Of a stretch of 64,000 nucleotides of DNA, positions 9,577 through 27,876 are shown one piece after another. Source of the stretch: Prosthecobacter fusiformis (GTDB lineage Bacteria; Verrucomicrobiota; Verrucomicrobiia; Verrucomicrobiales; Verrucomicrobiaceae); NCBI RefSeq assembly GCF_004364345.1, contig NZ_SOCA01000001.1:1240001-1304000 (forward strand), read 5' to 3'. The translations under genes were made by a program, and so were the position numbers. The stretch's first letter is position 1. Every line of letters starts with the position of its first letter. A model generated the notes under the pieces. That model was not told the DNA's origin, ran no database searches, and saw only the letters and a program-made list of their open reading frames with translations.

Positions 9577-9844
9577 AGGATGGGATCGTGTGCTTGCTTT
9601 GATGCACATGCAGTCCTTCAGCAGGTCTGCCATTGCATCACCATGACATCGAGTCCCGCCGACGAGGCGTGCGTAACAAAAAATGTGAAAAGCACATGCA
9701 TAATGCACGTCCAGGTACTGATCTTGTGACGATTTCCTTCCTGGCAGGAACCTCCTCCAAATTTCTCTGGTCAGAAATCTGTCTTTTCGTTGATCCTCAA
9801 CTATCATTCAATCGCCTGCCTAACTCCATTTGCCGTCCCCATCT

Positions 9845-11971: not shown

Positions 11972-13954
11972 TTAAATAGTTACTAAAGGCTCTTTGCGCG
12001 CCTGGGAAGGCAGTTCACAAAGGCTGCCATCAATGTAAAGATGGTGCCATAGCTGGGTGGCCACCACCGCAGCCAGCCCCATTTCAATCGAAAGCCTTGG
12101 CAATGAAGTGGCCCGCAGGGAGCTATAAGTCTTGCGCCAATGATGCACCATTTTCGCATCGAAGTATCCCGTCCGATTCAGAGATTCCTCACTCATGAGC
12201 TGGCCGACATACGCCGGTTCTGGCTCCAAATGAAAGCTGTCCAAAGGAGCGCGAAAGATCACTTTTCCACGCTTATAAATGGAAGGTGGCAGCCAGCGCT
12301 CCGCCAGCAGCCGCAGGATGTGTTTATCGCGGAAACCGCGCAGCTTCCAGTCTGGATGCAGCTTCGCACAGAAATCGAAGACGTCTTCATCCAGGAAAGG
12401 ATAACGCACCTCCACGGAGGAATGCATCGCCACACGATCCCCTTTGCCCTGGAGCAAATGGCCCGCCAGCGTCACGCGTCCTCCCACCCAAATCCCCCGG
12501 TTCAGCGGATGCCAGTGTTTTGCACGGTCCAGATTCATACCCAGAGTTGCCCATGGGTCAGTGGATTCACGCAGCTCATGCATGGACTCAGAATAAAAGC
12601 GCAGTTTGGCTAGGCCTAACAATCCATAGGAATCAATCCAGGCATTGGGCCCACCCACATTGGTTTCTGTGCGTGCGCGAAAGCTCGGCGGATACTGTGG
12701 CACATCACTATATTTCAAAAACGCTCGTCGTGCCCGATCCCCCAGCCGCAGTCCCCCGATGGAATCGAGATAACCGATGATCTTCGCCGCTTTATACCAG
12801 GGATACCCCACCAGCCATTCGTCGGCACCTTCCCCGGTCAGCACCACTTTTTGTCCGCATTCATGCACTTTCTGCGCCAATTGCAGCAGGGAGGCACAGG
12901 AGGTATCAATAACGGGCTGTTCAGCCGCAGCGATCAGCGTCGGATAAGTTTTGATGGCGTCTTCATGCCGAAATTCCTGCACCACGGGCGGTGGTGCGCC
13001 GATGAATTTCGCCACCATGCTTGCCGCATCCAGCTCGTCCAGCTTGGGATCATCCACCCTCACCGTATAGGTCGAAATGGACTTGCCCCGCAGATGACAA
13101 GCCAGCGCCAGGATCATGCTGGAATCCACCCCACCAGAAAGATAAGACCCCACAGGCACATCCGCCCGCAGCCGTTTATCCACGGCATTCAGCAGCACGT
13201 GCTCAAATTCATCCACCAGCTTTTTCGGATCCTTCTCTGGATTCTCATGACCCGCGTCAGGGAAATCCATTTCCCAGTACTTCCGTTCCCGCACACCCGG
13301 GGCTTTGTGGGAGTGCCCCGGCAAGATCTCCAGAAAATGCGCGGGCGGCAGCATCTGGATTCCTTCAAAACAAGTGATCGGTCCCGGCAGCGCTGAAAAG
13401 GTGAATACGTGATCAATGCCTCGCCGGTCCGGGATGGCAGGCACCATGCCAGAGGCCAGCAAGCCCTTGATTTCAGAGGCAAACAGCAGCCAGTCCCCCT
13501 GGCGCGTCCAATACAAAGGACTGATGCCAAACCGGTCACGCCCCAGCATCAGCTTCTGCTCTCGCTCGTCCCACAGCGCGATGGCGAACTGCCCGCGCAG
13601 CTTCTCAAACATCCCCTCCGCGCTTTCTTCCCACATGTGCGGGATGATTTCCGTATCGCAGTGCGTCACCAATGTGTGCCCCCGGGCGGCGAGTTCTGCA
13701 CGCTTCTCCACATGGTCAAATAGTTCGCCATTGAAGACGACGGAGACATTCCGTTCTTCATTGTGCATCGGCTGCTGGCCATCCGCCAGCCCCACGATGC
13801 TTAGCCGGCGGGATGCCATCGCCAGCCCTGGACGCATAAAAAAACCCTCCTCATCAGGTCCCCGATGGTAGAGTGCCCGGGACATCCTTTGGATGATTTC
13901 ATCCGGCACCACCCGCTTTCCAGCCATATCGATCACGCCTGCAATTCCACACAT
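11972..13954 (-). CDS. asnB: Asparagine synthase (glutamine-hydrolysing)
   Basis: A 660-residue two-domain enzyme that transfers glutamine-derived ammonia to aspartate. The N-terminal class II glutaminase domain begins MCGIAGVIDMAGK with nucleophile Cys2 and contains SRRLSIVGL and VVFNGELFDH. The synthetase domain carries the pyrophosphate loop SYLSGGVDSSM, then TGEGADEWLVGYPWYKAAK and the C-terminal RYPFLDEDVFDF. Length is somewhat above E. coli AsnB (554), as in the long AsnB forms often found in secondary-metabolite or polysaccharide loci. It is divergent from the PKS gene with 290 bp between, so a role in modifying the PKS product is conceivable, but plain asparagine synthesis explains it as well. 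Confidence 0.92.
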   Translation of the reverse strand: MCGIAGVIDMAGKRVVPDEIIQRMSRALYHRGPDEEGFFMRPGLAMASRRLSIVGLADGQQPMHNEERNVSVVFNGELFDHVEKRAELAARGHTLVTHCDTEIIPHMWEESAEGMFEKLRGQFAIALWDEREQKLMLGRDRFGISPLYWTRQGDWLLFASEIKGLLASGMVPAIPDRRGIDHVFTFSALPGPITCFEGIQMLPPAHFLEILPGHSHKAPGVRERKYWEMDFPDAGHENPEKDPKKLVDEFEHVLLNAVDKRLRADVPVGSYLSGGVDSSMILALACHLRGKSISTYTVRVDDPKLDELDAASMVAKFIGAPPPVVQEFRHEDAIKTYPTLIAAAEQPVIDTSCASLLQLAQKVHECGQKVVLTGEGADEWLVGYPWYKAAKIIGYLDSIGGLRLGDRARRAFLKYSDVPQYPPSFRARTETNVGGPNAWIDSYGLLGLAKLRFYSESMHELRESTDPWATLGMNLDRAKHWHPLNRGIWVGGRVTLAGHLLQGKGDRVAMHSSVEVRYPFLDEDVFDFCAKLHPDWKLRGFRDKHILRLLAERWLPPSIYKRGKVIFRAPLDSFHLEPEPAYVGQLMSEESLNRTGYFDAKMVHHWRKTYSSLRATSLPRLSIEMGLAAVVATQLWHHLYIDGSLCELPSQARKEPLVTI

Positions 13955-14045
13955 ATCGTTAGGTCAGTCCTCAAGTTAGGGTTCGTTCACAATGCAATCG
14001 TAACTCGCCGCCTGGATGCGTTTGCCCCGGACCGAATTGTACGGA

Positions 14046-14059
14046 TTAAATGAATTTAA
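14046..14059. promoter_or_regulatory. TTAAAT-GA-ATTTAA dyad in asnB/PKS divergent region
   Basis: A perfect 6+2+6 inverted repeat sits in the 290-bp gap between asnB and the PKS gene, in an AT-richer patch. No clear sigma70 pair could be assigned with confidence. It is a candidate operator for one or both divergent units; a chance AT-rich palindrome is possible. Confidence 0.3.
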
Positions 14060-14244
14060 CCTCGCTAAATCAAGTCAGGCCACTGTATAAAGCTCCGATT
14101 TTGCCAAAACGCTCGTCCAGCACTCGCTCACGACGAAGATAAAAAAAATCTCAGGCACGCAAACACGGCACTTCGCACGATTCGGTAAGACTGGCGTTGT
14201 TGCTCTTCAAACTTTTCAAACATCCCCCCAACGCTAAGAACTGC

Positions 14245-17200
14245 ATGCATAAAGAAGGAATTGCCATTATCGGTATTGGTTGCCGCTTCCCCGGCGGAAT
14301 CAACGACGTCGAAGCTTTTTGGAAACTTTTGGCGGAGGGACGGGATGCAGTTTGCGAGATCCCACCAGATCGCTGGAACATTGAGCGTTACTATGACGCC
14401 GAACCAGGCCTCGCAGGTAAATCCATTGCAAAACGCGGCGGCTTCCTGGATTCCATTGATCAATATGATCCCCAGTTCTTCGGCATATCCCCGCGTGAAG
14501 CCCCGTATGTGGATCCACAACAGCGTCTGGTGCTGGAAACCGCCTGGGAGGCCATTGAAGACGCAGGCATCGTTCTGGATTTAGAAAACGGCACGGACAT
14601 TGGCGTCTTCGTTGGCGTATCCCATACCGACTATCAGGTCATCCAGGGCACACCGTTTGATTCGGTGGGCATCGGCGCTCACTCTTCCACAGGCAGCGCC
14701 CACAGCATCGCAGCGAACCGCATTTCTTATTCGCTGAATTTGACCGGCCCCAGCATGTCCATGGATACAGCCTGCTCCTCCGCTCTGACGGCAGTTCATG
14801 CGGCGTGTGAACACATCTGGACCGGGCGCGGCACCACCGCGCTGGCAGGCGGCGTGACAGTCATGATCACCCCCGGCGGGTTCATCGGCTTTTCCCAGGC
14901 TTCCATGCTGTCTCCAGATGGGATGTGCAAAGCTTTCGATGCAGATGCCAACGGCTTTGTTCGTGCCGAGGGCGCGGGCATGGTCATGCTGAAAAAACTG
15001 TCCCAGGCCATCGCCGATGGTGACCCCATTCAGGGCGTGATCCTGGGTACCTCGACCAACCAGGATGGACACACCAATGGCATCTCCCTGCCGAGTCCCG
15101 AGGCCCAGGCCCGTCTGGTGAAGGATGCCTGCAAGGACGCTGGCATCAGCCCAAGTGAAATTGGCTATATTGAGGCTCACGGCACAGGAACAGCCGTCGG
15201 TGATCCCATCGAGGCGACAGCCCTTTCTGAGGCTCTCTGCGCTGATCGTGAGGAAGACGCACCACTCGCCATGGGTTCGGTCAAAACGAATCTTGGTCAT
15301 ATGGAAACCGCTGCAGGCGTGGCCGGTCTGGTGAAGGCACTGTTGGTGCTGAAGCACGGCCAGATTCCCCCTAGCCTTCACTTCAAAACCCCGAATCCTC
15401 ACATTGATTTCCAGGCGCTGAAGCTGCGCATCCCGACCACGATGGAGGACTTTCCTGAAACCTACGCAGTGCGTATGGCCGGGGTAAATTCTTTTGGGTT
15501 CGGTGGTGCTAACTCGCACGTCATTGTCGCAGAAGCACCGGCCAAACCTCATGTTAAAATGCCAGCTTCCGCTTTTGAGCGGCCCTGGCCTCTGGTGATT
15601 TCCGCCCGCTCTGAAGAAGCACTGAAAGCGACTGCCTTCCGTCTCTCCACCTGGATAGAAGATCATGAGAAATCCAATGGCACTTCACCTGTGCTGCCTG
15701 ATCTCGCCTATACCCTGGGTGCCCGCCGCAACCATCATCAGCACCGCCTTACCATGGTGGCCCGCACCTCGCATGAGGCCATCGCCACACTAAACGCTTT
15801 TGGTGTTGGCCAGGAAGTACCGAACGTCCGCAGCGGCTTCTCACCACGTCGGGAAAAAGCAGCTCGCGTTGGCTTCGTCATGAGTGGTCAGGGCCCACAG
15901 TGGTGGGGCATGGGCCGCGAGCTCATGAAAAATGAGCCTGTCTTCAGCAAGTCCATGGAAGCCTGTGCCGAAGCGCTGAAACCTTGGGCCAAATTCTCAT
16001 TGCTGGAAGAACTCGCCCGCGATGAAAAAGATTCCAAGATGAGCATGACGGAGATTGCCCAACCGGCCATCTTTGCCATGCAGGTCTCCCTTTCTGAACT
16101 TTGGAAATCCTGGGGCGTTCAGCCTGCAGCGATTGTCGGTCATAGTGTGGGTGAAATCGCCGCCGCCTGCGTGGCCGGTGTACTCAGCTTGGAAGAAGGA
16201 GCCAAAGTCATCGCTCTGCGCGCCCGTTTCATGAACGGCTGCGCCCGTGGTGCCGGCACCATGCTGGCTGTGGGCCTGGATGAAGATGCGGCCCTCGCTG
16301 CCATCGCCAAGCACGACCGCGTGGTCAGCATCGCTGCCTTCAATGGACCGCGTTCTCTCACTCTCTCCGGTCCTAAAACTTCCCTGGAAGCCATTCAGTC
16401 GCAGCTCGAAGCCGAAGGTGTCTTTGCCCGCTTTGTGCGCGTGGACCATCCTTTCCACCATGCCTACATGCAGCCTGCGGCCGATGAGCTTGTCGCCGCT
16501 CTGGCAGACCTCAAACCTCGCGATGAAACGGTACCGTTTTTCAGCACCGTCACTGGGGCAAAGATCACGGGCAGCGAATGCGATGCCGGTCACTGGGGAC
16601 GCGGTATCCGTCAGGCCGTCATGTTTGCACCTGCCGTCAATGCACTGGCGGATTTCGGTGTGGACGTCTGGCTTGAAATCACCGCCCACCCTGCCCTTTC
16701 CCTCTCCATTCAGGAATGCCTGGGAGCACGCGGAATGAAAGCCCCCGTCGTTGCCTCCGCACGCCGGGACCGTGAACATGAAGCCATGCTTGAGGCTGCG
16801 TTGGAACTTCACCGTGCCTGTGTGGACCTGGACTTCAAGGGCATGACCCCGTCCCGTCACCAGCTCTCCTTGCCGACTTATGCCTGGGACAAGGCACGCT
16901 GGTGGAATGAATCTCCAGACTGGCGTGAAGGCCGTCTGGGTTCCGGTGGCAAAGGCTTGCTGGATGTGCGCCTCCCACGCGCCACACCCACATGGATTGC
17001 GCGTCTGGACAACCGCCACATGGCCTTCCTGAAGGATCACAAGGTAGAAAGCCACGTCATCTTTCCAGCCGCAGGTTTTGTGGAACTCATTCTCGAAGCC
17101 GGAACTCAATATTTCGAAGGCCGTCCATTTGCTGTCGAAGACTTTGAGATCCGCAAACCGCTCATCCTCACAGAGAATCCATCCGGCGTCGTGCTGGAAG

Positions 17201-20200
17201 TGACCTATGACCCGAACGAGCGTACCTTCACCATCCAGAGCAAATTTGACCAAGGGGCCGCATGGTCTGTGCATGTGGTCGGCTCCATGCGGGGTGAACG
17301 CACCGAATCCAATTTCAATACCTCCACCTGGGAGGGTTCCACGGCGGGCCTCACATCTCTGGATGTGACGGATTTCTACCAGCACATGAGTGACCTGGGC
17401 CTCCGCTATGGGGATGAATTCCGCGCCGTGCGTGAACTCTGGGCTGCTGGAGGCAAGGCTGCTGGTAAGGTGGCATTGTCAGAGAACATCTCCCACCGTG
17501 CAGGTGAATACTGCCTGCATCCCGTACTGCTGGATGGCGCTCTGCACACCTTCTCTGCCGGTTCAAAAACTGTGGAAGATCGCAAGGCCAAGATGAAGCT
17601 GCCTGTGCGCTTTGGCCGCATCCTTTACCTGCGCTCACCTGGCGCGGTGACGCATGTGCAAGCCAAAGTGGTCCAGTTTAACGACGAGTTTATTGAGGGT
17701 AATATCGGCCTCTACGATGCCTCAGGGAAACCCTGCGTCTTGGTGGATGGTTTCCGCGCCGTCAGCATGGCCGCCGCCCGCCGCGCCGGCACCTCCGGTA
17801 CCCGTGACCTCCTTTATCACGTGGACTGGGAGCGCACGGAGACCGCAGCAGTCCCCTCTCCTCTGGCCCCCATACCTTTGGCAGAACTGAAACAGGCCGC
17901 ACAAAAGACGCTGGAAGAAGTTATCTCCGTCCGTGGCAAAACCAAACTGGAAGCTACCATGGCCGCCGAGGATGATCTCGCCGCTGCCCAGATCGCCAGA
18001 GGCCTTAGCCAGATGGCATCAGGCCTCACGGCCAAGGACGTCTGGACTGTCGAGACTCTGAAAGTCGCCGAGCCGATGCGCCGGGTGTACAAACATTTGG
18101 TTAACGACCTGGCCAAACGCGGCCTGTTGGAAGCCAAAGGCGATGGCCACTTGCCCACTGCCAAATTTGCCACAGCTGCAGATTCTGCCACGGCTGAGCT
18201 AAACAAGTTCATTGCCCTCAATCCTGGCCACTTGCCGGAAGGCATGCTCTGCTCCATCACCTGTGCCGAATTAGGGCCTATCCTGCGTGGCGAAAAAGAT
18301 GCCGTGCAAGTGCTCTTTGGCGGCTCCAACAGCGACCTCCTGGATCAGTTTTATGGTGACGGTTTGCTCTCCAGTCACTGGATGGCCGCTATCACCAGCG
18401 CTGTGAATGAAGCCTCAAGGAAGCTTCCTGAAGGTCGTGGCCTGCGCATCCTCGAAGTAGGTGCTGGCACCGCCGGTCTCAGCGCCTACCTGCTGCCGCT
18501 GCTGCCACGCGGCTTGCATTCCTATACCTTCACCGATGTTTCCGCCGGGTTCTTCCCGCAGGCAGCTCAGAAACTGGCTGCATTTTCAGAAGTCGAATTC
18601 AAAGTCTTCAACCTCGAACAGTCGGGCCTCACCCAAGGCTTCGAAGCTGACAGCTATGACCTCGTCATCGGCACCAACGTCATCCACGCCGTGGCGGATG
18701 TCCGCGCGACTCTGGGTTACATTCACGAGCTCCTCAAACCCGGCGGTAGTCTGGTGTTCATGGACGTTGCCACCCCTCAGCTTTGGACGGAAAGCGTCTT
18801 CGGCCTAACCAGCGGCTGGTGGCATCTCACCGACCGTGAGCTGCGCCCTGACCAGCCCCTCATGCAGCGCCCCCAGTGGGAAGCCGCCATGAAGGAAGCC
18901 GGCTTCGCTGAAACGACCTCCATCCCCGGCCTGACAGGCCCGCGTGGTGGCGAAGGCCAGATCGGCCTTTTCGGTCGCAAAGCCTGGAAGGATTCCGTTA
19001 CAACTCCAGCCTCCGAGCCAACGATTGCACCAGCGACAGAACAGTCCTGGCTGGTTTTCGCCGACAAAGGAGGCCTCGGAGATCAACTCGCTGCCCGACT
19101 CCAATCGGCCGGAATACGGGTGCGCATTGCCCGCCGCGGTTCTGAGTATACGGCTAAAGGAAACGAATACACCGTGCGTGCCGATACACCGGCAGACTGG
19201 ATGACCCTGGTCACCTCCTATGCTGACGATGCACCTCCAGAACGCATGACCTACCTCTGGTCTCTGGATGAACCCGCAGGCCGGGGCGAGGGCGACTCCG
19301 CCCTCATGGGCATCGACGCCCTGCTTCACCTGACCCAGGCCATCGAGAACACCACTCCTGCCGCCAAGCTGCGCATGGACCTCATCACCCGCGGTGCCCA
19401 GCCTGCTGGCCAGCACATGGGCCTCACCAATGTCGCCCAGGCACCTTCCATCGGTGTCTTCCGTGTCATTCTCAGCGAGCATCCGAACTTCGCCTGCCGT
19501 GGTCTGGATCTCCCACCGGAGGTGGCAGACACTGACTCCGCCCTGCTCTGGCGTGAGCTGCTTCAGGAGCACGGTGAACGCGAAATCGCCATCCGTGGCG
19601 AAGCCCGTTACGTGCAGCGCATCAAGCGCGGCCTGCCGGTGCAGGAAACCACCCTTGATCGCAAGATCCCCCTCCGCCTGGAATCCCGCGAGCGTGGCAT
19701 GCTGGACACCCTGAAATTGACCGCCTTCTCCATGCCCGTTTGTGGTGATGGTGAAGTCCTCATCGAAGTCAAAGCCGCCGGCATGAACTTCCGTGACGTG
19801 CTCAAGGCCCTAGCCCTTTATCCGGCTGAAACTCCAGACGCCCGCATCTTCGGTGACGAAGTAGGTGGCATCGTGGTGGCCGCAGGCAAAAACGTCAAAC
19901 ACGTCGCCGTCGGTGATCGTGTCTTCGGTCTGGCCGTCTATGGTTTGTCCACCCACACACTGGCCCGTGGTGGTGATGTGGTGAAGATTCCAGAAGGGCT
20001 GTCCTTTGAAGATGCCGCCACCATCCCAGTCGTCTTCATGACCTCCTGGCACGCGCTGAATAACGTGGCCCGCATGCGCAAAGGAGAAAAAATCCTCATC
20101 CATGCCGGTGCTGGCGGTGTCGGCATGTCCGCCATTCAGATCGCTCTGCATCTCGGTTGCGAAGTCATCGCCACCGCAGGCAGCGCCTCCAAACGCGCCC

Positions 20201-21942
20201 TCCTGGAAACCCTCGGCGTGAAACACGTCGTCGATTCCCGCCGTGCCGACTTCGCCGATGCGGTCATGGAACTGACCAACCGCAAAGGGGTGGATGTGGT
20301 GCTCAACGCCCTGGCCGGAGAAGCCATCCCCATGGGCCTCTCCTGCCTGTCCGAGTTTGGCCGTTTCATCGAAATCGGCAAACGCGACATCTATCAAAAC
20401 TCCCGCATTCCCCTGTGGCACTTGCGGAAGAACTCCTCCTTCCACGTCGTGGCCATGGATGCCGTCTTCGGCGGCGATGAAGAACTGACACGCAATTTGT
20501 TAGGCGAAGTTGTGGAACTGGTTGAAAAGGGTGCCCTGCGCCCCCTGCCCTTCCGCGCCTATCCCGCCTGCCGTGTGGATGCCGCTTTCCGCCTCATGGC
20601 CGCTGGTAAGCACATCGGCAAGGTGGTCGTCACTTTTGCAGACGCCTTTGTGAACCGTCGTGGTGAGGCCCCAGTTCCTGGGTTCGATGTAAAAGCAGAC
20701 GGCACCTACCTCATCACCGGCGGCTTTGGCGGTTTCGGCCGCGTTCTGTCTGAGTGGCTCGTGGATTGTGGCGCACGCAATCTCGTGCTGGCCAGTCGCA
20801 GCGGTCCCTCCACCCCTGAGGCCAAGGACTTCCTGGATTCCCTGGCAGCCCGTGGCGTCAATGCCCAGGTCGTCAAAGCCGATGCAGGCGAGCCTGCGGA
20901 CGTGACCCGGATGCTTCAGGAAATCGAAAAAGCCGGAGTGCCCCTCAAAGGCATCTTCCATCTGGCCATGGTCATTGATGATGCACCAATGGGCGTGCTG
21001 AACCGTGAGCGCATGCGCACCGTTCTTGCTCCAAAAGCCCTCGGTGCCTGGATGTTGCATGAAGGCACCCTGGATCAAAATCTGGACTGCTTTGTCATGT
21101 TCTCCTCCATCTCCAGCGTCTTCGGCAATCCGGCCCAGAGCAACTACTCTGGCGCCAATGCCTTCCTGGATTCCCTTGCGCACCATCGCCGTGCGTTAGG
21201 CCTGCCAGCCCTCACCATTAACTGGGGCGTGCTGGGGGGTGAAGGTTACGTCGCACGCAATGAACGTGTGGCCGAATTCCTCGCCCGCCAGGGCACCTCC
21301 GCCATCACTCCCGGCGAGGTCATCTCCCTGCTCGAGACCTTCCTCACCGCTGGCTCCGCCCAGGTGGCCGCCATCCGTGTGGACTGGGCCAAGTGGCGCC
21401 AATCCTTCCGTGGCCTTCAAGAAAATCCCCTCCTGGAACACATCTTCTCCTCTGGAGTCGAAAGCGCCGAAGCGGGTGGTATGACCGGTGACTGGCGCGC
21501 AAAAATCGATGCCGCTCCGGCCGATGAACGCGCACCCATCATCGCCCAGGCTCTTCGCGAAGTGGTCGGCTCAGTTCTTCGTGTCAAAGCGGACAGCCTC
21601 CGCGATGACCAGCCGCTGACAGATCTCGGACTCGATTCCCTCATGGGCGTCGAGATTGAAAACCTCATCGAAAGCACCATCGGCGTAGCCCTGCCACCCA
21701 CCAGCCTCATGCGTGCTCGCACCATCGGCCAGCTCGCCGCCCTCATCGGCGAGCATCTCGGTGGCGCTTCCTCAGGCACGGCCAAACCCGCCGCCGCTCC
21801 GGCAGTCGTCGAAGCGCCCACCTCCGTGGATGAAGTGGACCTGGACGCCATCTCCGATGACGACATCGCCAGCCTCCTGGACGATGTCGCTGAAGAAACC
21901 CCGGCCCCAGCTTCCAAGTCCGCGCCAAAAGCCGGAGCCTGA
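14245..21942 (+). CDS. Highly reducing type I polyketide synthase (KS-AT-DH-MT-psiKR-ER-KR-ACP)
   Basis: A 2565-residue single-module PKS. Domains (ATG 14245 numbering): KS about 5-430 with C177 (DTACSS), H312 (HGTGT) and H352; AT about 535-850 with S634 in GHSVGE and an HPFH malonyl-type motif; DH about 905-1175 with H932 (motif HKVESHVIFP, Gly replaced by Ser) and D1097 (LDGALH); C-methyltransferase about 1220-1575 with EVGAGTAG at 1404; structural psiKR; ER about 1820-2130 with HAGAGGVG at 1953-1960; KR about 2152-2390 with TGGFGGFG at 2158, Y2301 and an IDD (B-type-like) motif; ACP with S2465 in GLDSL. There is no thioesterase or reductase. The set predicts iterative, fully reducing, C-methylating chain synthesis. 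ATG 14245 abuts the KS start; the longer frame from 14197 uses TTG. Confidence 0.95.
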   Translation: MHKEGIAIIGIGCRFPGGINDVEAFWKLLAEGRDAVCEIPPDRWNIERYYDAEPGLAGKSIAKRGGFLDSIDQYDPQFFGISPREAPYVDPQQRLVLETAWEAIEDAGIVLDLENGTDIGVFVGVSHTDYQVIQGTPFDSVGIGAHSSTGSAHSIAANRISYSLNLTGPSMSMDTACSSALTAVHAACEHIWTGRGTTALAGGVTVMITPGGFIGFSQASMLSPDGMCKAFDADANGFVRAEGAGMVMLKKLSQAIADGDPIQGVILGTSTNQDGHTNGISLPSPEAQARLVKDACKDAGISPSEIGYIEAHGTGTAVGDPIEATALSEALCADREEDAPLAMGSVKTNLGHMETAAGVAGLVKALLVLKHGQIPPSLHFKTPNPHIDFQALKLRIPTTMEDFPETYAVRMAGVNSFGFGGANSHVIVAEAPAKPHVKMPASAFERPWPLVISARSEEALKATAFRLSTWIEDHEKSNGTSPVLPDLAYTLGARRNHHQHRLTMVARTSHEAIATLNAFGVGQEVPNVRSGFSPRREKAARVGFVMSGQGPQWWGMGRELMKNEPVFSKSMEACAEALKPWAKFSLLEELARDEKDSKMSMTEIAQPAIFAMQVSLSELWKSWGVQPAAIVGHSVGEIAAACVAGVLSLEEGAKVIALRARFMNGCARGAGTMLAVGLDEDAALAAIAKHDRVVSIAAFNGPRSLTLSGPKTSLEAIQSQLEAEGVFARFVRVDHPFHHAYMQPAADELVAALADLKPRDETVPFFSTVTGAKITGSECDAGHWGRGIRQAVMFAPAVNALADFGVDVWLEITAHPALSLSIQECLGARGMKAPVVASARRDREHEAMLEAALELHRACVDLDFKGMTPSRHQLSLPTYAWDKARWWNESPDWREGRLGSGGKGLLDVRLPRATPTWIARLDNRHMAFLKDHKVESHVIFPAAGFVELILEAGTQYFEGRPFAVEDFEIRKPLILTENPSGVVLEVTYDPNERTFTIQSKFDQGAAWSVHVVGSMRGERTESNFNTSTWEGSTAGLTSLDVTDFYQHMSDLGLRYGDEFRAVRELWAAGGKAAGKVALSENISHRAGEYCLHPVLLDGALHTFSAGSKTVEDRKAKMKLPVRFGRILYLRSPGAVTHVQAKVVQFNDEFIEGNIGLYDASGKPCVLVDGFRAVSMAAARRAGTSGTRDLLYHVDWERTETAAVPSPLAPIPLAELKQAAQKTLEEVISVRGKTKLEATMAAEDDLAAAQIARGLSQMASGLTAKDVWTVETLKVAEPMRRVYKHLVNDLAKRGLLEAKGDGHLPTAKFATAADSATAELNKFIALNPGHLPEGMLCSITCAELGPILRGEKDAVQVLFGGSNSDLLDQFYGDGLLSSHWMAAITSAVNEASRKLPEGRGLRILEVGAGTAGLSAYLLPLLPRGLHSYTFTDVSAGFFPQAAQKLAAFSEVEFKVFNLEQSGLTQGFEADSYDLVIGTNVIHAVADVRATLGYIHELLKPGGSLVFMDVATPQLWTESVFGLTSGWWHLTDRELRPDQPLMQRPQWEAAMKEAGFAETTSIPGLTGPRGGEGQIGLFGRKAWKDSVTTPASEPTIAPATEQSWLVFADKGGLGDQLAARLQSAGIRVRIARRGSEYTAKGNEYTVRADTPADWMTLVTSYADDAPPERMTYLWSLDEPAGRGEGDSALMGIDALLHLTQAIENTTPAAKLRMDLITRGAQPAGQHMGLTNVAQAPSIGVFRVILSEHPNFACRGLDLPPEVADTDSALLWRELLQEHGEREIAIRGEARYVQRIKRGLPVQETTLDRKIPLRLESRERGMLDTLKLTAFSMPVCGDGEVLIEVKAAGMNFRDVLKALALYPAETPDARIFGDEVGGIVVAAGKNVKHVAVGDRVFGLAVYGLSTHTLARGGDVVKIPEGLSFEDAATIPVVFMTSWHALNNVARMRKGEKILIHAGAGGVGMSAIQIALHLGCEVIATAGSASKRALLETLGVKHVVDSRRADFADAVMELTNRKGVDVVLNALAGEAIPMGLSCLSEFGRFIEIGKRDIYQNSRIPLWHLRKNSSFHVVAMDAVFGGDEELTRNLLGEVVELVEKGALRPLPFRAYPACRVDAAFRLMAAGKHIGKVVVTFADAFVNRRGEAPVPGFDVKADGTYLITGGFGGFGRVLSEWLVDCGARNLVLASRSGPSTPEAKDFLDSLAARGVNAQVVKADAGEPADVTRMLQEIEKAGVPLKGIFHLAMVIDDAPMGVLNRERMRTVLAPKALGAWMLHEGTLDQNLDCFVMFSSISSVFGNPAQSNYSGANAFLDSLAHHRRALGLPALTINWGVLGGEGYVARNERVAEFLARQGTSAITPGEVISLLETFLTAGSAQVAAIRVDWAKWRQSFRGLQENPLLEHIFSSGVESAEAGGMTGDWRAKIDAAPADERAPIIAQALREVVGSVLRVKADSLRDDQPLTDLGLDSLMGVEIENLIESTIGVALPPTSLMRARTIGQLAALIGEHLGGASSGTAKPAAAPAVVEAPTSVDEVDLDAISDDDIASLLDDVAEETPAPASKSAPKAGA

Positions 21943-21958
21943 GCCAGGTCTTCATCCA

Positions 21959-23308
21959 ATGTCCCAAGACCTCCGAGCCAACCTCAAACAGTGGCTGGAA
22001 AGCGGTGAAATCCGCCTCCAGCCACTGAGCCTCCCGCAGCGTGAACTGTGGGAAAACTCCCCCGTTCCACCGGGAGACATCGGCAACCACATCTGCGCCT
22101 TCATTGAGGTGAAAGGCAACATCACGGCGGAGGATTGCACCGCCGCTCTGCGCTTGGTCGTGGAGCGTCAGGAAGTCCTGCGCCTGTCCTTTCTTCCCGG
22201 GAAAGGACAGCCCTTCCAAATGATCCGCCGGACCGGCATACCCGCCATCAAGTATCGGGATCTGGAGCCGGATCAATGCACCCCGGCGGGTATCGAAGGC
22301 ATCATGGACGAAATCTTTCGTCAGCCCTTCGACATGCTGCGGGGTCCGCTCTATCGCGTGGAAATGCTGCAAAAAGGCCCTGGCGATCTTGTCCTGGTCT
22401 TCGCCATCCATCACTCCATTGCCGATGGCTGGACTCTCGGCGTCTTCGTCCAGGACCTCGCTGGCGCTTATATTCAAAACAAGCTCAGTGGCGGGGGTCC
22501 TCTCCCCTCCGTGGAAATGTCTTATACCGCCTGGGCCGCAGCCGAGCGCGCCACTTGGCAGCCCGTCGAGTTGGAACTCCGAGCTGAATTTTGGCGCAAG
22601 CATCTGGCCGATACCATACGCCTTTGGGACCGCCCAACGGATGTGGCACAGCGAGCTGGAAAGCTTGCCTACTGGGCCTCCAGCATCCCTCCAGACCTTG
22701 TCCGGGAGATCCGTACCCTGTCCAAAAATTCCGGCACCACCCTTTTCAATACCCTCCTCACCGCCTTCCAGACCATGCTGGCTCAGTGGACAGGCCAGAC
22801 AGACATCGTCGTCGGCAGCCCTGTAGCCAATCGTACTCGCCAGCCCGCCAAAGAAACCATGGGTTACTTCGCCGGGGTGGTCCCACTGCGCGGAAAGGTG
22901 GATACCACACAAAGCTTCTCCACCGCCGCCCGCGCCGTCCAGGATTCCAGCATGGACTGCTTCGCTCAGGCCATGCCTTTTGCCGAGCTCGTCAAGTCCC
23001 TCGGCATCTCGCAGGAGGAAGGTCACAACCCCATTTTCGACGTCCGTTTTGCCCTGCAAAATCACCCCGTTCCGGATGTCACCCTGCCTAGCCTCTCTTT
23101 CAAACTGCGCATGCGCTCCACCGGCACCGCACGTTTTGACCTCGCCTGCGAAATCACCGAGGATGGCGATGAATTCGAAGTCGTCTGGCTCTACCGCCCC
23201 GGACTTTTTACCCTCGCGGATGCCGAAGAACTGAACCGCAGGTACCAGACCCTTCTGGAAAACGTATCCCGTTCACCCCATAGTCCCCTCTCCGCCATAC
23301 TGGCCTGA
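21959..23308 (+). CDS. Stand-alone condensation-domain acyltransferase
   Basis: A 449-residue free condensation (C) domain of the NRPS/PapA superfamily, which uses a His to catalyse ester or amide formation between a thioester-bound acyl chain and an acceptor. The HHxxxDG motif is intact as H151-H-S-I-A-D-G157. The early LPLSLPQRELW region matches C-motif 1, and the mid-protein GSPVANRTRQP and end region are normal. There is no adenylation or carrier domain. It starts 16 bp after the PKS stop, so it is very likely the release or transfer enzyme for the polyketide, doing the job of the missing thioesterase. An amide-forming or ester-forming role cannot be separated by eye. ATG 21959 avoids a long overlap with the PKS. 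Confidence 0.88.
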   Translation: MSQDLRANLKQWLESGEIRLQPLSLPQRELWENSPVPPGDIGNHICAFIEVKGNITAEDCTAALRLVVERQEVLRLSFLPGKGQPFQMIRRTGIPAIKYRDLEPDQCTPAGIEGIMDEIFRQPFDMLRGPLYRVEMLQKGPGDLVLVFAIHHSIADGWTLGVFVQDLAGAYIQNKLSGGGPLPSVEMSYTAWAAAERATWQPVELELRAEFWRKHLADTIRLWDRPTDVAQRAGKLAYWASSIPPDLVREIRTLSKNSGTTLFNTLLTAFQTMLAQWTGQTDIVVGSPVANRTRQPAKETMGYFAGVVPLRGKVDTTQSFSTAARAVQDSSMDCFAQAMPFAELVKSLGISQEEGHNPIFDVRFALQNHPVPDVTLPSLSFKLRMRSTGTARFDLACEITEDGDEFEVVWLYRPGLFTLADAEELNRRYQTLLENVSRSPHSPLSAILA

Positions 23309-23313
23309 ATGTG

Positions 23314-24330
23314 ATGAATGCCACAACCACATCCTCCGACCCTCTTGACCTCAATGTGAAAGGTGATCTCGCAGAGCCGCATGAGCCTCATTGGATCAGT
23401 CGCTCCGCTTTTCAGATCCTCGCCTGTTGCCTTTATGCGGTGCAGGCATCGCTTTTTCTCGCTCTGTATTACAACATCACCTGGCTGGTCGTGCTCCTCC
23501 TCTTCCCAGCCTCCCACCTCATGCATGGCGTCCTCATCGGCTTTCATGAGGCATCTCACGGCCTGCTGCGCAAAAATCGCCGCTTCAATGAATTCGATGG
23601 TGTCTTCATCGGCATCCTCAGCCTCACCAGTTTCAGCCTTTATCGCGCCGCCCATCAAACCCATCACATGCATCTCGCCACGGAGCGTGATGAAGAACTC
23701 TGGCCGTTTGTGGACCCCAAATCTCCCCGTTGGTTCCGCCGTTTGGCAGCTTTCCTAGAGCTCACCTTCGGCCTTTGGTTCACCCCTTATCTTTTCCTCC
23801 GCACCTTTTTCCGGAAGAACTCCCCCATCCGCAACAAGCGCGTTCGCAAACGCATCTGGCAAGAGCTCATCGGCATTGTTGCTTTTTGGACCGTCGTCCT
23901 AACCGCCGTCGCTTGGTTTGGCCTCTGGAAATATTACTTCTGCATGTACCTCATTCCCGCCATGTTCGCGGCCAATATGCAGAGCTGGCGCAAATACGTG
24001 GAGCATGTCGGCCTCAGCGGCACGTCTGCCACCGGTGCCACTCGCAGCATAGTCGATGAAGGCCTCACCGGTAAAATCCTGGCTTACTCCCTCCTTCACG
24101 AGCCCTTTCATGGTCTTCATCACCGCCACCTCGGCATACACCACTGGCAGTTGCCCCACCGCGCCTCCGAGCTCACCCCCACCACACCCGAGGAGACTGC
24201 CCCTTATCCCAGTTACCGCCTGGCCGTCATGGACCTCATTCGTGATCTTGCTGACCCAAAAGTAGGGCCGCATTGGCGCACGGAAACGAATGCTTCGGCG
24301 TCCCCTGCTTCCGTGGCCCTTCCGGGCTGA
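23314..24330 (+). CDS. Membrane fatty-acid desaturase/hydroxylase
   Basis: A 338-residue integral-membrane di-iron enzyme of the fatty acid desaturase superfamily. Three histidine boxes are present: HEASH (78-82), HQTHH (114-118) and HEPFHGLHH (262-270), with hydrophobic segments between them (for example YNITWLVVLLLFPASHLM and FWTVVLTAVAWFGLWKYYFCMYLIPAMF). It begins 5 bp after the condensation-domain gene (GTG 23311 just before ATG 23314 is an alternative start). Its placement suggests that it introduces a double bond or hydroxyl into the PKS-derived chain, or into an acyl partner, at the inner membrane. Electron donors are not encoded nearby. Confidence 0.9.
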   Translation: MNATTTSSDPLDLNVKGDLAEPHEPHWISRSAFQILACCLYAVQASLFLALYYNITWLVVLLLFPASHLMHGVLIGFHEASHGLLRKNRRFNEFDGVFIGILSLTSFSLYRAAHQTHHMHLATERDEELWPFVDPKSPRWFRRLAAFLELTFGLWFTPYLFLRTFFRKNSPIRNKRVRKRIWQELIGIVAFWTVVLTAVAWFGLWKYYFCMYLIPAMFAANMQSWRKYVEHVGLSGTSATGATRSIVDEGLTGKILAYSLLHEPFHGLHHRHLGIHHWQLPHRASELTPTTPEETAPYPSYRLAVMDLIRDLADPKVGPHWRTETNASASPASVALPG

Positions 24331-24348
24331 ATTGGCCCCTTTTCCCTC

Positions 24349-25092
24349 ATGAATCCCACCTCAGCGCCAGCAGGTATCCCCAGCCCCGTTTATGAGGCGA
24401 TCCATTTGAAAAAGGAATACGATGCTGGTCAGGTCCAGGCCCTACGCGGCATCAGTTTCAAAGTGAATGCGGGGGAATTCGTCGCCATCACCGGTCCCAG
24501 CGGTTGTGGAAAAAGCACCCTGCTTCAGATGCTCGGCGCATTGGACCGTCCCGCCTCCGGCACTCTCAATTATCGTGGCCAGTCCTTGCCGGATGTCGCG
24601 GACCCCTCCGCTTACCGCGCCCATGAGATCGGCTTCATCTTTCAGGCCTTTCATCTCCTCCCCACCTGCACCGCTGTGGAGAATGTACAGATCCCCATGT
24701 TTGAGGGCAAGCTGGGCATGAAACAGCGTCGGGAGCGCGCCGTGGATTTGCTAAAACAAGTCGGTCTTGGCCATCGGTTAGACCATTATCCAGGCAAGCT
24801 CTCCGGCGGTGAAAGGCAGCGCGTCGCCATCGCCCGCAGCCTGGCCAATTCTCCCACCGTTCTTCTCGCTGATGAGCCCACAGGCAATCTGGACAGCACC
24901 AATGCCACGCACGTATTAGACCTCCTGGTGCGGCTGCATGAAGAGCAAAAGATGACCCTCATCATGGTCACCCATGACATGGACATCGCCCGCATGGCCG
25001 GGCGCACCATTTTGATGAAGGACGGCCTTCTGGTCTCAGACAGTCTTAACCAGCCCGTTTCATCCCTTAACTCCCCGGCCGCTACAGCATGA
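24349..25092 (+). CDS. ABC transporter ATP-binding protein (LolD/MacB type)
   Basis: A 247-residue nucleotide-binding subunit. Walker A GPSGCGKST is at residues 49-57, the signature LSGGERQRVAIARSLA near 150, and Walker B VLLADEPTGNLD just after; FIFQAFHLLPTCTAVENV is the typical Q-loop region of the LolD/MacB/FtsE-like subgroup. These ATPases drive extrusion or transfer of envelope substrates by mechanotransmission and do not act as importers. It overlaps the next gene by 4 bp (ATGA at 25089), marking a two-component transporter. It is 18 bp downstream of the desaturase and appears to be in the PKS operon. Confidence 0.93.
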   Translation: MNPTSAPAGIPSPVYEAIHLKKEYDAGQVQALRGISFKVNAGEFVAITGPSGCGKSTLLQMLGALDRPASGTLNYRGQSLPDVADPSAYRAHEIGFIFQAFHLLPTCTAVENVQIPMFEGKLGMKQRRERAVDLLKQVGLGHRLDHYPGKLSGGERQRVAIARSLANSPTVLLADEPTGNLDSTNATHVLDLLVRLHEEQKMTLIMVTHDMDIARMAGRTILMKDGLLVSDSLNQPVSSLNSPAATA

Positions 25093-26204
25093 CTTTTTTT
25101 TCCATTGTTGTACGCGGCCTCCTGCGCCGTCCTGTGCGCACCGCCCTCACCCTGGTGGGCATCTCTCTCGGCATCGCCGCCGTCGTCGCCCTGGTCGGTC
25201 TTTCGGAAGGTTTTGAAAAAAGCTGGCAGACAGGACTCAAGGTGCGCGGGACGGACATCGTCGTCAGCAACATGGGCGGGGCCATGGTGCCAAAACCCTT
25301 CAGTCCCACCGTCCGGGACCGGGTAGCCAAAATCCCTCAAGTGGCGGAAACCTGCATGCTCATGGTGGAGCTCATGAGCGTGGAGGAGGCTGAAATGATC
25401 ATGGTCTCCGCGCGCGAATGGGGCGGTTTCACTTGGGATAATCTGCAAATCATTTCCGGCCGCCTTCCCAAAGACGCCAACGAGCAAGCGGTCGTATTGG
25501 GTCAGACCGCAGCCCAGGTCCTCAAGAAAAAAGTCGGCGATTCCCTCCTCATTGAGGCTGCCGAACTCAACGTCGTAGGCATCGTCAATGGCGGAGCTTT
25601 GGTGGAAGACGGTTCCATCATTCTCGCCCTGCCCGTCCTTCAGACCATCATGTCCAGTGAGGACAAAATCAACGTTGTGGATGTCCGCGCCGTGCCCGGC
25701 CTCACCGAGCAGGAACTAGATGCCCTGAGTGAGCGTATCACCACAGCCATCCCTGAAATACGGGCCGTCTCCGTCGCCCATCATTTTAATAACAGCCAGG
25801 GTTTCAAAATGATTCGCGCCATGAGCTGGGGCACCTCCCTCCTCGCCGTATTGGTGGGTGTGCTCGGTGTCATGAACACCATGCTCATGACCGTCTTCGA
25901 GAGAAAGCAGGAGATATGTGTCCTGTTGGCCATCGGCTGGAAGCGGGGACGCATCGTCCGCATGGTGCTACTGGAGTCCGCTATCCTAGGCCTGGCTGGC
26001 GGCATTTGTGGCATCTTGTTAGGCATTGCCGGGGTGAAGATCATGCAGGCCACTCCGGCCATCCGTGGTCTGCTGGAGGCGGATCTCGGAGCTCCACTGC
26101 TCCTCACTGCCTTGCTCATTTCCGTGATTGTCGGCGTGCTCAGCGGTCTGTATCCGGCCTGGCGCAGCTCCCGCTTGAATCCAGCAGCCGCGCTCAACGG
26201 CTGA
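25089..26204 (+). CDS. ABC transporter permease (MacB/FtsX family)
   Basis: A 371-residue permease with the MacB/LolC/E topology: one helix at about residues 15-38, a large periplasmic domain (about 40-245), and three C-terminal helices (SLLAVLVGVLGVMNTMLMTVF, ILGLAGGICGILLGIAG, LLTALLISVIVGVLSGLYPA). The PAWRSSRLNPAAAL ending is a family hallmark. With the preceding ATPase it forms a homodimeric exporter or lipid-extraction pump. The start codon overlaps the ATPase stop. No outer-membrane TolC partner or membrane-fusion protein is present; instead a LolA-like carrier follows, pointing to a Lol-like route to the outer membrane. Confidence 0.92.
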   Translation: MTFFSIVVRGLLRRPVRTALTLVGISLGIAAVVALVGLSEGFEKSWQTGLKVRGTDIVVSNMGGAMVPKPFSPTVRDRVAKIPQVAETCMLMVELMSVEEAEMIMVSAREWGGFTWDNLQIISGRLPKDANEQAVVLGQTAAQVLKKKVGDSLLIEAAELNVVGIVNGGALVEDGSIILALPVLQTIMSSEDKINVVDVRAVPGLTEQELDALSERITTAIPEIRAVSVAHHFNNSQGFKMIRAMSWGTSLLAVLVGVLGVMNTMLMTVFERKQEICVLLAIGWKRGRIVRMVLLESAILGLAGGICGILLGIAGVKIMQATPAIRGLLEADLGAPLLLTALLISVIVGVLSGLYPAWRSSRLNPAAALNG

Positions 26205-26257
26205 CCCGTTTTTGTTTCTTTGCGTGCAAACAGCCGCCGCCATACGAATCCTTGGTC

Positions 26258-27052
26258 ATGAAACGTCATCCCGCCTTTTTCACGCTGCTGTCGGTCCTCG
26301 GCCTGGTTATCCTAACTAATTTTACTTCATCGCTTCATGCAGCCGATGAGCCAGCCACTGCCGCTGATCTCGCCTCCCGCATGAACGCCATCCGCTCGGA
26401 TGGCACCTCCTTTGCACGCCTCCGCATGGAGATCAATGGCGGCGGTGCCATCCAGATCCAGACCAAGGAACGTCACACCCAAAGTGGCTCGGATGCCGTT
26501 TACCAGATCCTCTTTCCCAAAGAGCGCAAAGGTGAGTCCGTGCTGCTGCGCAAGTCCGCTTCTGGCGCTACTTCCGGCTCTCTTTTTGTCCCACCGGAAA
26601 CCCTCACCCAGCTCAGTGCCGCCCAGATGAAGAACGGCCTCTTCGGCAGCGATCTGGCTTACGAAGACGTCATCGAAAACTTCTTCGCCTGGAGCACTCA
26701 GTCCCTGGTCGGCACTGCGGAAATTGACCGCACCGCCTGTCAGATCCTCGAATCCAAACCAGGAAATTCCGACCGCTCCAGCTATGCCTCCGTGCGCACA
26801 TGGATCGACCCTCGTCGTATGGTGCCCCTCCGTGTGGAAAAGTACAATGCTTCCGGCACCCTCCTCCTCCGCATTGAAACGAAGGATGTCGCAAAGGATG
26901 ATCGAGGCCACTACCTCCCCGCCAGCCTCACCATCACCCGTGCTGGCAGTGGGGGAACAATGATTCAGGGCTCCCGCATCCGCCATGGCGTCCCCCTGAC
27001 CGATGCCGACTTCTCTCCAGCAGGAATCCAGACACTGACCACGCCCAAGTAA
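26258..27052 (+). CDS. LolA-like outer-membrane lipid/lipoprotein carrier
   Basis: A 264-residue exported protein of the outer-membrane lipoprotein-sorting (COG2834, LolA-like) group. The signal peptide ends near residue 28 (SSLHAADE). The mature part contains the alternating strands expected of the half-barrel lipid-binding fold (FARLRMEINGGGAIQIQTKER, VYQILFPKERKGESVLL), the YEDVIENFFAW helix, and a C-terminal VRTWIDPRRMVPLRVEKYNASGTLLLRIE segment. The carrier lies 53 bp after the permease. Known LolA-fold proteins shuttle lipids or lipoproteins across the periplasm; here the neighbours suggest the cargo is the PKS-derived lipid. That cargo is inference. Confidence 0.85.
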   Translation: MKRHPAFFTLLSVLGLVILTNFTSSLHAADEPATAADLASRMNAIRSDGTSFARLRMEINGGGAIQIQTKERHTQSGSDAVYQILFPKERKGESVLLRKSASGATSGSLFVPPETLTQLSAAQMKNGLFGSDLAYEDVIENFFAWSTQSLVGTAEIDRTACQILESKPGNSDRSSYASVRTWIDPRRMVPLRVEKYNASGTLLLRIETKDVAKDDRGHYLPASLTITRAGSGGTMIQGSRIRHGVPLTDADFSPAGIQTLTTPK

Positions 27053-27117
27053 TCGCCTGGATCTTGGTGTAGAAGAATCTGGTGAAACGGTCTCTATCGG
27101 CCTATTCTTTTCATCCC

Positions 27118-27876
27118 ATGAATCTCACCGACCTCAGCCATTACCTTGATACCACCCTGCGTATCCGCGAGCTTCCGGATTACAGCAACGCCGTGAATGG
27201 TTTGCAGCTTGCCAATCGCAAAGGTGAGATCACCCGCATCGCTGCTGCTGTGGATGCCACCTTGCCCGTCGTTAAAAAGGCCATCGCCACCGGAGCGGAC
27301 ATGCTCATTGTGCATCACGGCATGTTCTGGAGCGGCCTTCAGCCCTGGACGGGTGCCACATTTGAGCGCATGCGTCTGGCCATTGAAAACGACCTCGCTA
27401 TCTACAGCGTGCATCTGCCCTTGGATGTCCATCCGCAGTTGGGAAACAACGCCCAGATTGCCAAAGCCATGCAGCTTGTTCCAGGCGGTAACTTCTTGGA
27501 TTACAAAGGCATGCCCGTAGGAGTCACGTGCGAGCTCGTCATGCCTTTGGATGAAGTCGTCTCCCGCTTCACAGAGGCTCTCGGCGGCAGTCGTGTCCAC
27601 CTCTGCGCGGGCGGCCCTCAGTCCACACGGAAGATTGGCATCTGCTCCGGCGGCTCCGGCTCGGAGGTCGCCGCCGCCGCGAAAGCTGGTGTGGATACCT
27701 TCATCACTGGTGAAGGCCCACACTGGAGCTACACCCTCGCCGAAGAACTCGGCATCAATGTTCTTTACGGCGGTCACTACGCCACCGAGACCTTCGGCGT
27801 CAAAGCCCTCGCCCAGCACCTTCAGGCACAGTTCAGCCTGCCCTGGGAATTTGTGGACCATCCCACTGGACTCTGA
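27118..27876 (+). CDS. Nif3-like dinuclear metal-centre protein
   Basis: A 252-residue member of the NIF3/YbgI (GTP cyclohydrolase I type 2 fold) family. Metal-binding motifs are visible: IVHHGMFW (His pair), a YSVHLPLDVHP segment, and C-terminal GEGPHWSYTL...GGHYATE with the last His and Glu ligands. The start at 27118 (MNLTDLSHYLD) is typical; the frame opens at a GTG 36 bp earlier. The biochemical role of the family is unsettled (metal-dependent hydrolase or chaperone). It lies 65 bp after the LolA-like gene and 8 bp before the glycosylase gene and is probably unrelated to the PKS cluster. Confidence 0.9.
   Translation: MNLTDLSHYLDTTLRIRELPDYSNAVNGLQLANRKGEITRIAAAVDATLPVVKKAIATGADMLIVHHGMFWSGLQPWTGATFERMRLAIENDLAIYSVHLPLDVHPQLGNNAQIAKAMQLVPGGNFLDYKGMPVGVTCELVMPLDEVVSRFTEALGGSRVHLCAGGPQSTRKIGICSGGSGSEVAAAAKAGVDTFITGEGPHWSYTLAEELGINVLYGGHYATETFGVKALAQHLQAQFSLPWEFVDHPTGL

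Follow-up and report, generated by a model that had tools for sequence, protein, structure and literature searches.

What would a polyketide synthase (PKS) be doing at the head of a compact row of genes for a condensation enzyme, a transporter and a LolA-like protein in a verrucomicrobial genome? The question is raised by a gene cluster at positions 14245-27052 of a 64,000-nt stretch of Prosthecobacter fusiformis DNA (G000:C1:1240001-1304000), the whole of which is referred to here as the window. A preliminary description had presented this cluster as six genes on one strand, separated by gaps of 53 bp or less with one 4-bp overlap, and had likened it to the phthiocerol dimycocerosate (PDIM) machinery of mycobacteria. 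All six genes and their domain assignments are confirmed here, and the parts, their motifs, their linkage and their co-occurrence point to what is probably a dedicated system for the synthesis, conjugation and envelope export of a PKS-made acyl conjugate. The genes, with stop codons included in all coordinates, are as follows:

14245-21942, plus strand: PKS, stop codon included; an alternative upstream TTG start is possible at 14197
21959-23308, plus strand: condensation protein (PF00668), stop codon included
23311-24330, plus strand: desaturase-family protein (PF00487)
24349-25092, plus strand: LolD/MacB-type ATP-binding cassette (ABC) ATPase (PF00005)
25089-26204, plus strand: permease (PF02687 and PF12704, FtsX/MacB_PCD)
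26258-27052, plus strand: LolA-like protein (PF17131)

Successive gaps from the PKS to the LolA-like gene amount to 16, 2, 18, -4 and 53 bp. The start of the condensation gene was set at 21959, the residue at which most aligned orthologues begin; the mechanical open reading frame opens at 21713.

This gene set is a real recurring unit that keeps the same order in relatives. A set of 96 related genomes was searched with the condensation protein, which matched 35 of them at E 1e-40 or better; 27 carry an orthologue of at least 50% identity, and the remaining matches do not exceed 29%. These 27 genomes, hereafter termed cluster-bearing, fall in 8 of 27 genera, and gene order was inspected around 29 further copies in relatives. 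In addition, a scan of one genome per species, based on two peptide patterns and not exhaustive, yielded 69 condensation loci, of which 58 (at least 47% identity, all Verrucomicrobiota) were kept for counts and 11 (at most 33% identity, other phyla) were left out; the 58 loci overlap partly with contigs of the 96 genomes, and at least two genomes contribute two loci each. Linkage was counted by tblastn, with loci having enough flanking sequence as denominators. A full PKS with all seven domains lies upstream of the condensation gene at every one of the 38 loci with at least 8 kb upstream, and the desaturase gene lies downstream at 47 of the 52 loci with at least 1.2 kb (missing in L065, L084, L088, L092 and L112). 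The ATPase and permease genes follow at 36 of 40 loci with at least 5 kb (missing in L069, L070, L088 and L113), and the LolA-like gene at 26 of 33 loci with at least 6 kb (missing in the same four and in L090, L107 and L129). The dedicated biosynthesis-plus-export unit put forward in the preliminary description is thus upheld: the PKS genes stay linked to the transporter and carrier, whose separation in related genomes that description had named as a refutation.

Co-occurrence across the 96 genomes gives a similar picture. The desaturase gene was found in all 27 cluster-bearing genomes and in one of the 69 others (G044), where the cluster is cut at a contig edge, while a LolA-like protein of at least 45% identity occurs in 26 of the 27 and, among the others, again only in G044. 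Pairwise-distance correlations between cluster genes range from 0.70 to 0.98, values that also reflect species descent and are not evidence of function. The explanation that the genes are chance neighbours was rejected in view of their linkage in several genera. Named relatives of the condensation gene are assigned to Verrucomicrobiota, several of them to Prosthecobacter or unclassified Verrucomicrobiaceae, and a phylum-wide search, with at most four candidates scored per genome, placed the cluster in at least 4 of 387 genomes, which is a lower bound.

How far does the unit extend? The preliminary description stopped at the six genes, which stand, and missed an associated group that extends the unit upstream to 9830:

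9830-11140, plus strand: amidase-signature enzyme (PF01425); a lipobox-like Cys (LPSC) at the N-terminus was noted by eye
11137-11913, plus strand: tetratricopeptide repeat (TPR) protein, signal peptide judged by eye; its first 4 bp overlap the end of the amidase gene
11972-13954, minus strand: asparagine-synthase-family protein, divergent from the PKS, with N-terminal MCGI and the SGGVDS loop intact (by eye)
13955-14244: intergenic stretch separating the PKS from the divergent asparagine-synthase gene, a likely control region

The amidase was detected at E<=1e-70 in 23 of the 27 cluster-bearing genomes and in none of the 69 others. Within a single genus in which the cluster is patchily distributed (19 of 48 genomes), it is present in 19/19 cluster-bearing and 0/29 other genomes. 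All 21 orthologues examined retain the GGSSSGS motif; 11 fit a strict lipobox pattern, and in the other 10 a Cys follows a hydrophobic stretch by eye, with start codons uncertain. The enzyme is accordingly predicted to be membrane-anchored and to face the periplasm. Orthologues of the TPR protein appear by eye to carry ordinary signal peptides. Single copies of the TPR gene are found in many cluster-free genomes, as would be expected of an ordinary neighbour, but that explanation was set aside because an additional copy goes with the cluster: 23/27 cluster-bearing and 0/69 other genomes have at least two (E<=1e-30). In at least two genomes the amidase-TPR pair is unlinked: G019 carries it on a different contig, G042 at a distance of about 50 kb. 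At L092 and L112 it lies directly 3' of the LolA-like gene. The asparagine-synthase paralogue, at 68% identity or more, is present in 21 of the 96 genomes, all of them cluster-bearing (21/27 versus 0/69); among the six cluster-bearing genomes without such a match, G048 and G021 hold a fragment of the gene at a contig edge. The paralogue scores over the NCBIfam asparagine synthase cut-off, so it may simply make asparagine, though a stronger PF00733 protein is encoded at C6 of the same genome.

What might the unit produce? The PKS is a single-module type I enzyme with the order KS-AT-DH-cMT-ER-KR-ACP and a putative KR-like structural stretch between cMT and ER, and a domain scan matched no thioesterase domain within it. 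In an alignment of 47 distinct full-length PKSs (what remained of 61 after removal of duplicates), the KS Cys and His, the AT Ser, the DH His and Asp, the KR Ser-Tyr-Asn set and the ACP Ser are kept in all 47, as are the nucleotide motifs of ER and KR. As to methylmalonyl use of the kind associated with mycocerosic acid synthase and Pps proteins, the features point both ways: the KS-AT-DH region has mycocerosic acid synthase as its nearest solved protein, but the AT motif is mostly HPFH (H in 44, P in 46, F in 43 and H in 47 of the 47 sequences), which would denote a malonyl-type extender, and a methyltransferase domain, nearest to that of CurJ among solved proteins, is present.

The second gene offers a candidate for the release of the chain. 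The condensation protein (449 aa) matches PF00668 only, without an A or carrier domain, and its HHxxxDG motif is intact (HHSIADG), with H152, D156 and G157 invariant in 21 aligned rows and H151 conserved in at least 90%. Its nearest solved relatives are C domains of non-ribosomal peptide synthetases (NRPSs), such as that of TycC (2jgp at 3e-62 by profile), and PapA5 is absent among the best 60 of 64 solved-structure matches at E<=0.1 as well as among 60 of another search. A single C domain with the second His and the Asp intact would place the protein with free-standing condensation enzymes that make amides, of the VibH/OaaC kind; the (D/H)HxxxDS motif of the OaaC clade is not present, G157 being invariant in place of S. 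Since no thioesterase domain was matched in the PKS, the condensation protein is proposed to be the chain-release enzyme.

A short acidic segment at the C-terminus of the PKS may bear on how the two proteins meet:

21832-21885, plus strand: acidic C-terminal PKS tail, conserved although the linkers on either side vary; it is proposed to dock the condensation protein

The pattern that follows the ACP reads V-D-L-[DE]-A-[IL]-S-D-[DE]-[DE]-I-D-x-L-L, in which D2532 and L2544 are kept in 47/47 PKSs and L2545 in 46/47, with neighbouring columns mostly below 50% conservation. Perhaps this tail recruits the condensation protein. Short C-terminal motifs are described as binding beta-hairpin docking domains (PMC9113145), and the PKS tail recalls such short linear motifs. 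Only about 20 residues, carrying a conserved stretch of their own, precede the catalytic domain of the condensation protein; this seems too short for a docking domain of that hairpin type (PMC9113145).

The third gene product, a membrane protein of the fatty-acid-desaturase family, is predicted to be a desaturase or a hydroxylase. The His residues of its His boxes are invariant in an alignment of 19 rows. The NCBIfam models for the hydroxylase GntB and for DesA match it at scores far under their cut-offs, which leaves desaturation uncertain. No significant solved relative was found by sequence. The structural model is of moderate quality (predicted local distance difference test, pLDDT, 73), and its fold matches (8xks_K at 2e-4, 8xqw_M at 6e-4, FtAlkB at 0.018 and stearoyl-CoA desaturase at 0.32) do not settle between desaturation and hydroxylation. 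As a separate observation, 9 of 30 desaturase matches in relatives were flagged with one internal TGA; in one example, G008:C8:743574-744512, the coordinates suggest that the match just extends a few codons beyond the stop.

Where would the product go? The ATPase is matched by the NCBIfam LolD, MacB and DevA models, all below their cut-offs, with LolD and MacB nearest, while the permease, whose FtsX and MacB_PCD domains exceed the Pfam cut-offs, has MacB as its nearest solved relative, followed by LolC/LolE; together they constitute a MacB/LolDE-type transporter. The LolA-like protein is well over the curated cut-off of PF17131 (79.3 bits versus 30), the only family matched at E<=0.001, and is predicted to be soluble and periplasmic from a signal peptide and the lack of a lipobox Cys, both judged by eye. 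Its model (pLDDT 90) superposes on 4z48 with Z 27.3 (root-mean-square deviation, rmsd, 2.2 over 224 aligned residues), on LolA3 of Porphyromonas gingivalis with Z 26.3 (rmsd 2.9, 228 aligned), on 3bk5 with Z 26.4 and on 3buu with Z 21.7, with LolB and LolA at about 10 to 14. LolA3 and its solved relatives (9tp6, 4z48, 3bk5) thus resemble the carrier in both sequence and fold. Of the two structural likenesses that the preliminary description had raised, the LolA-type fold is borne out by 4z48, 3bk5 and LolA3, and that to LppX (2byo) proves weak (a Foldseek match at E 1e-4 with a TM score of 0.28); LppX did not appear in a second structural comparison, an absence that carries no weight.

Might the carrier and pump merely serve lipoproteins? 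That the carrier is the housekeeping LolA, which the preliminary description had named as a refutation of its reading, was rejected: the sole genome match to standard LolA (PF03548) at E<=0.001 sits outside the window, at G000:C5:160561-161025. A broader alternative holds that the ABC pair and the LolA-like protein form a lipoprotein-sorting module that came to lie beside the PKS genes by accident, and the resemblance of the three proteins to the LolD, LolCE and LolA families is what such a module would show. A related ATPase-permease-carrier cassette does exist apart from any PKS in the cluster-free genomes G055, G056 and G057 and as a second copy in G050. We nevertheless judge this explanation very unlikely, as the carrier orthologue and the condensation gene co-occur nearly perfectly, the pump is adjacent in 36 of the 40 loci already mentioned, and standard LolA is encoded elsewhere in the genome. 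The neighbours of the cassette in L132, L133 and L134 (a peptide transporter, methionine synthase, M3 peptidases, DUF1501 and MnmE) give no clue to its cargo. One of them, at L132:6086-11056, is a 1657-aa methionine synthase with MetH domains in which a Zeta_toxin match (E 5e-9), an odd kinase-like insertion, lies between two B12-binding domains.

Taken together, the parts suggest the following course for the dedicated synthesis-and-export system favoured here. The PKS, probably acting iteratively, would assemble on its ACP a chain that is reduced and probably C-methylated, drawing on malonyl units and the methyl group of S-adenosylmethionine, as its domains and motifs indicate. The condensation protein would then shift the chain from the ACP to an amine or hydroxyl of a free acceptor, in the manner of VibH or OaaC, and the desaturase-family enzyme may desaturate or hydroxylate the chain or the product. 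Judging from family and fold, the LolD/MacB-type ABC pair would extract the product from the inner membrane and pass it to the LolA-like carrier, which would ferry it through the periplasm in the direction of the outer membrane. In many members, the asparagine-synthase paralogue might supply an asparagine acceptor or make a product amide, and the lipoprotein amidase with its periplasmic TPR partner might hydrolyse or exchange the amide after export; both roles are proposed from co-occurrence. Their localisation signals would place the amidase and the TPR protein outside the cytosol, which makes post-export processing plausible. The product is somewhat more likely to be an amide than an ester, because an enzyme that makes an amide or asparagine and an enzyme that cleaves amides travel with the cluster.

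Several observations weigh against this reading. On the enzymatic side, the DH motif HxxxGxxxxP is altered in the 47 PKSs, its G position being mostly N, S or T, and the sole genome match to the phosphopantetheinyl transferase family (PF01648) at E<=0.001, at G000:C2:245799-246086, is AcpS-sized, no Sfp-type enzyme for a type I PKS being seen in that search. On the export side, neither a LolB-like gene nor one for an outer-membrane protein was matched within the cluster, and PKS and condensation genes occur without the ABC and carrier genes in the sequence available for L069, L070, L088 and L113, and for L065 and L084, where the flank is shorter than 4 kb. The cassettes found outside the cluster indicate that the pump and carrier are not intrinsically tied to a PKS product. 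A LolA-like search at E<=1e-10 without the 45% cut also recovers 6 of the 69 other genomes, and both identity cuts (68% for the asparagine-synthase paralogue and 45% for the carrier) were chosen after the gaps had been viewed. The Fisher P values for co-occurrence over the 96 genomes, 4e-16 to 5e-23, ignore shared ancestry. Relatives of the asparagine-synthase gene at 49% identity are found in the cluster-free genomes G067, G082 and G085, and the gene lies within 10 kb at only 18 of the 34 Verrucomicrobiota loci with enough sequence; at least two of the 16 loci that lack it there (L093 = G040 and L102 = G005) carry it farther off.

Could the product instead leave the cell? The conjugate might be a secreted bioactive polyketide amide akin to zeamine, which the ABC pair and carrier would detoxify and secrete and which the amidase would activate or detoxify after export. 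A patchy distribution, as in the genus with 19 cluster-bearing genomes out of 48, would be in keeping with such a role, as would apparent remnants of lost clusters: L137 (G038:C95) and L135 (G008:C11) hold fragments of the LolA-like gene, L137 also one of the amidase gene. Moreover, an HlyD adaptor and an AcrB-type resistance-nodulation-division (RND) pump lie directly 3' of the condensation gene at L088:11361-15850, replacing the desaturase and ABC genes, an arrangement that fits a need for export; MacB-type pumps and RND pumps with HlyD adaptors are typical secretion pumps. Against secretion, a soluble LolA-like carrier, rather than an adaptor with a TolC-type route, suits a hydrophobic cargo bound for the outer membrane, and no HlyD-type adaptor was matched among the cluster proteins of the window. 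In its favour, the zeamine cluster itself combines ABC and HlyD genes with a free-standing condensation protein and also encodes an acyl-aminoacyl-peptidase domain (PMC3547906). On balance, secretion of a bioactive amide appears rather unlikely but is a serious rival.

A more specific form of the favoured synthesis-and-export system can be sketched tentatively, namely a compartmentalised amide-lipid cycle, so far confined to Verrucomicrobiota. Here, the PKS and the free-standing condensation protein would make a branched acyl amide in the cytosol, with the asparagine-synthase paralogue supplying or shaping the head group, the LolDE/MacB-type pump and a private LolA-type carrier would deliver it, and the amidase and TPR proteins would cleave or transfer the acyl chain at the envelope. 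We regard this cycle as speculative and rather doubtful; if it were true, it would amount to a route for lipid sorting that runs alongside Lol, with a polyketide lipid as cargo in place of lipoproteins and with processing after transport. How polyketide lipids and other unusual lipids get through the periplasm to the outer membrane is not well understood. In the present cluster, the genes for synthesis and release sit together with those for the pump and carrier as a compact, conserved block, an amidase is inherited along with it, and the phylum is one of whose natural products little is known. Records that look like cultured strains are among the carriers of the cluster (Brevifollis gellanilyticus NBRC 108608 and Verrucomicrobium sp. 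BvORR106 and BvORR034), which would make both the product and the role of the private LolA-type carrier directly testable.

Some loci depart from the common gene order. An alpha/beta-hydrolase-like protein of 527-535 aa is encoded between the desaturase and ATPase genes in L045:13255-14859 (plus strand), L060:4967-6547 (minus strand) and L057, and such an insertion was counted in 3 of 40 Verrucomicrobiota loci, some of them the same contigs as these three. At L099:12421-17121, the same interval inside the operon encodes an adhesin-like product (about 1566 aa) that matches Big_3_5, YDG and PATR. At L107:14287-17251, the expected place of the LolA-like gene after the permease is taken by an LpxD-like acyltransferase and a leucine-rich-repeat protein, and a leucine-rich-repeat protein likewise follows the permease in L056 (same contig as L129). 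Members of a protein family of about 370 aa are encoded next to the cluster in 10 loci, in 7 of them just downstream (L114:15151-16254, L098:9833-10936 and L085:16495-17610 are among the 10); Pfam and NCBIfam gave no match for the member that was scanned, which by eye resembles a methyltransferase. Within the window, a scan for terminators and promoters over 26950-27200 found none, and the downstream NIF3 and MPG genes were left out of the cluster, since just one of the 29 regions inspected in relatives (L034) has them beside it. A squalene-hopene-cyclase-family protein at 30159-32015 (minus strand), next to a gluconolactonase-like gene 3 kb past the cluster, likewise recurs in 1 of 29 relative regions (L034). 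Farther along, at 53773-55392, a 539-aa open frame without a Pfam match adjoins a LacI-type regulator.

How does the cluster compare with known systems, beginning with PDIM? The PDIM system comprises a PKS, the joining enzyme PapA5, the DrrABC pump and LppX (PMC11237470), and the present cluster resembles it in general logic only, as a set of PKS, joining enzyme, pump and carrier. The PDIM-like parts list of the preliminary description is not supported: the condensation protein is of the NRPS C-domain type, the permease belongs to FtsX/MacB_PCD, the carrier to PF17131, and the AT motif is mostly HPFH. A true PDIM-type system, akin by descent to the mycobacterial one, would account for mycocerosic acid synthase being the best solved match of the KS-AT-DH region and for the match of the NCBIfam Pks2 model to the PKS, which stays below cut-off. 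However, the condensation protein, pump and carrier belong to families other than PapA5, DrrABC (with MmpL7) and LppX, the PKS has an extra methyltransferase domain, and neither an MmpL-type protein nor an AMP ligase was found among the 38 window proteins scanned with Pfam. Descent from a common PDIM-type ancestor is thus extremely improbable, and membership in that system was rejected, three of the four compared part families being different.

Other systems stand closer. The aryl polyene cluster of Gram-negative bacteria (with ApeL, ApeM and ApeN in Escherichia coli) has its own LolA-like protein, RND transporter and LolB-like protein, for which outer-membrane placement of the product has been proposed (PMC8253772). 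Both are clusters for a polyketide-like lipid with a LolA-like protein and a transporter of their own; the aryl polyene pathway employs separate enzymes resembling those of fatty acid synthesis together with RND and LolB-like proteins, whereas the present cluster relies on a type I PKS and a MacB-type ABC pair, with no RND or LolB-like match. Heterocyst glycolipids of cyanobacteria are comparable in joining a PKS to an ABC exporter, and the DevA model does match the cluster ATPase, below cut-off as noted; that system is not known to have a LolA-like carrier or a free-standing condensation protein. Putative PKS enzymes are described for the aglycone, the DevBCA exporter is required for export (PMC8064123), and a TolC protein is involved according to the title of a reference cited there. 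With regard to release, VibH is described as transferring to a free acceptor and Zmn19 of the zeamine pathway is proposed to act likewise (PMC3547906), and OaaC has been shown to form a fatty acid amide, its clade bearing (D/H)HxxxDS with G in 17% of members (PMC13142362, a preprint). These proteins and Bamb_5915 of the enacyloxin pathway share with the cluster protein a lone condensation domain, a carrier-bound chain and a free acceptor, shown or proposed (PMC3547906, PMC13142362, PMC9113145). The cluster protein differs from OaaC in its canonical HHxxxDG, from Bamb_5915 in having no separate N-terminal docking domain, and from all of these free-standing enzymes in being linked to a reducing PKS and LolA-like export. 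Literature searches, judged by titles and the opening parts of abstracts, gave no recognisable description of the cluster, although one may exist within full texts or elsewhere. The aryl polyene, heterocyst glycolipid and zeamine/OaaC systems are closer analogues than PDIM, and what is new in the present cluster is the combination of a single-module type I PKS, a free-standing condensation protein, a MacB/LolDE-type pump, a private LolA-like carrier and a co-inherited lipoprotein-like amidase.

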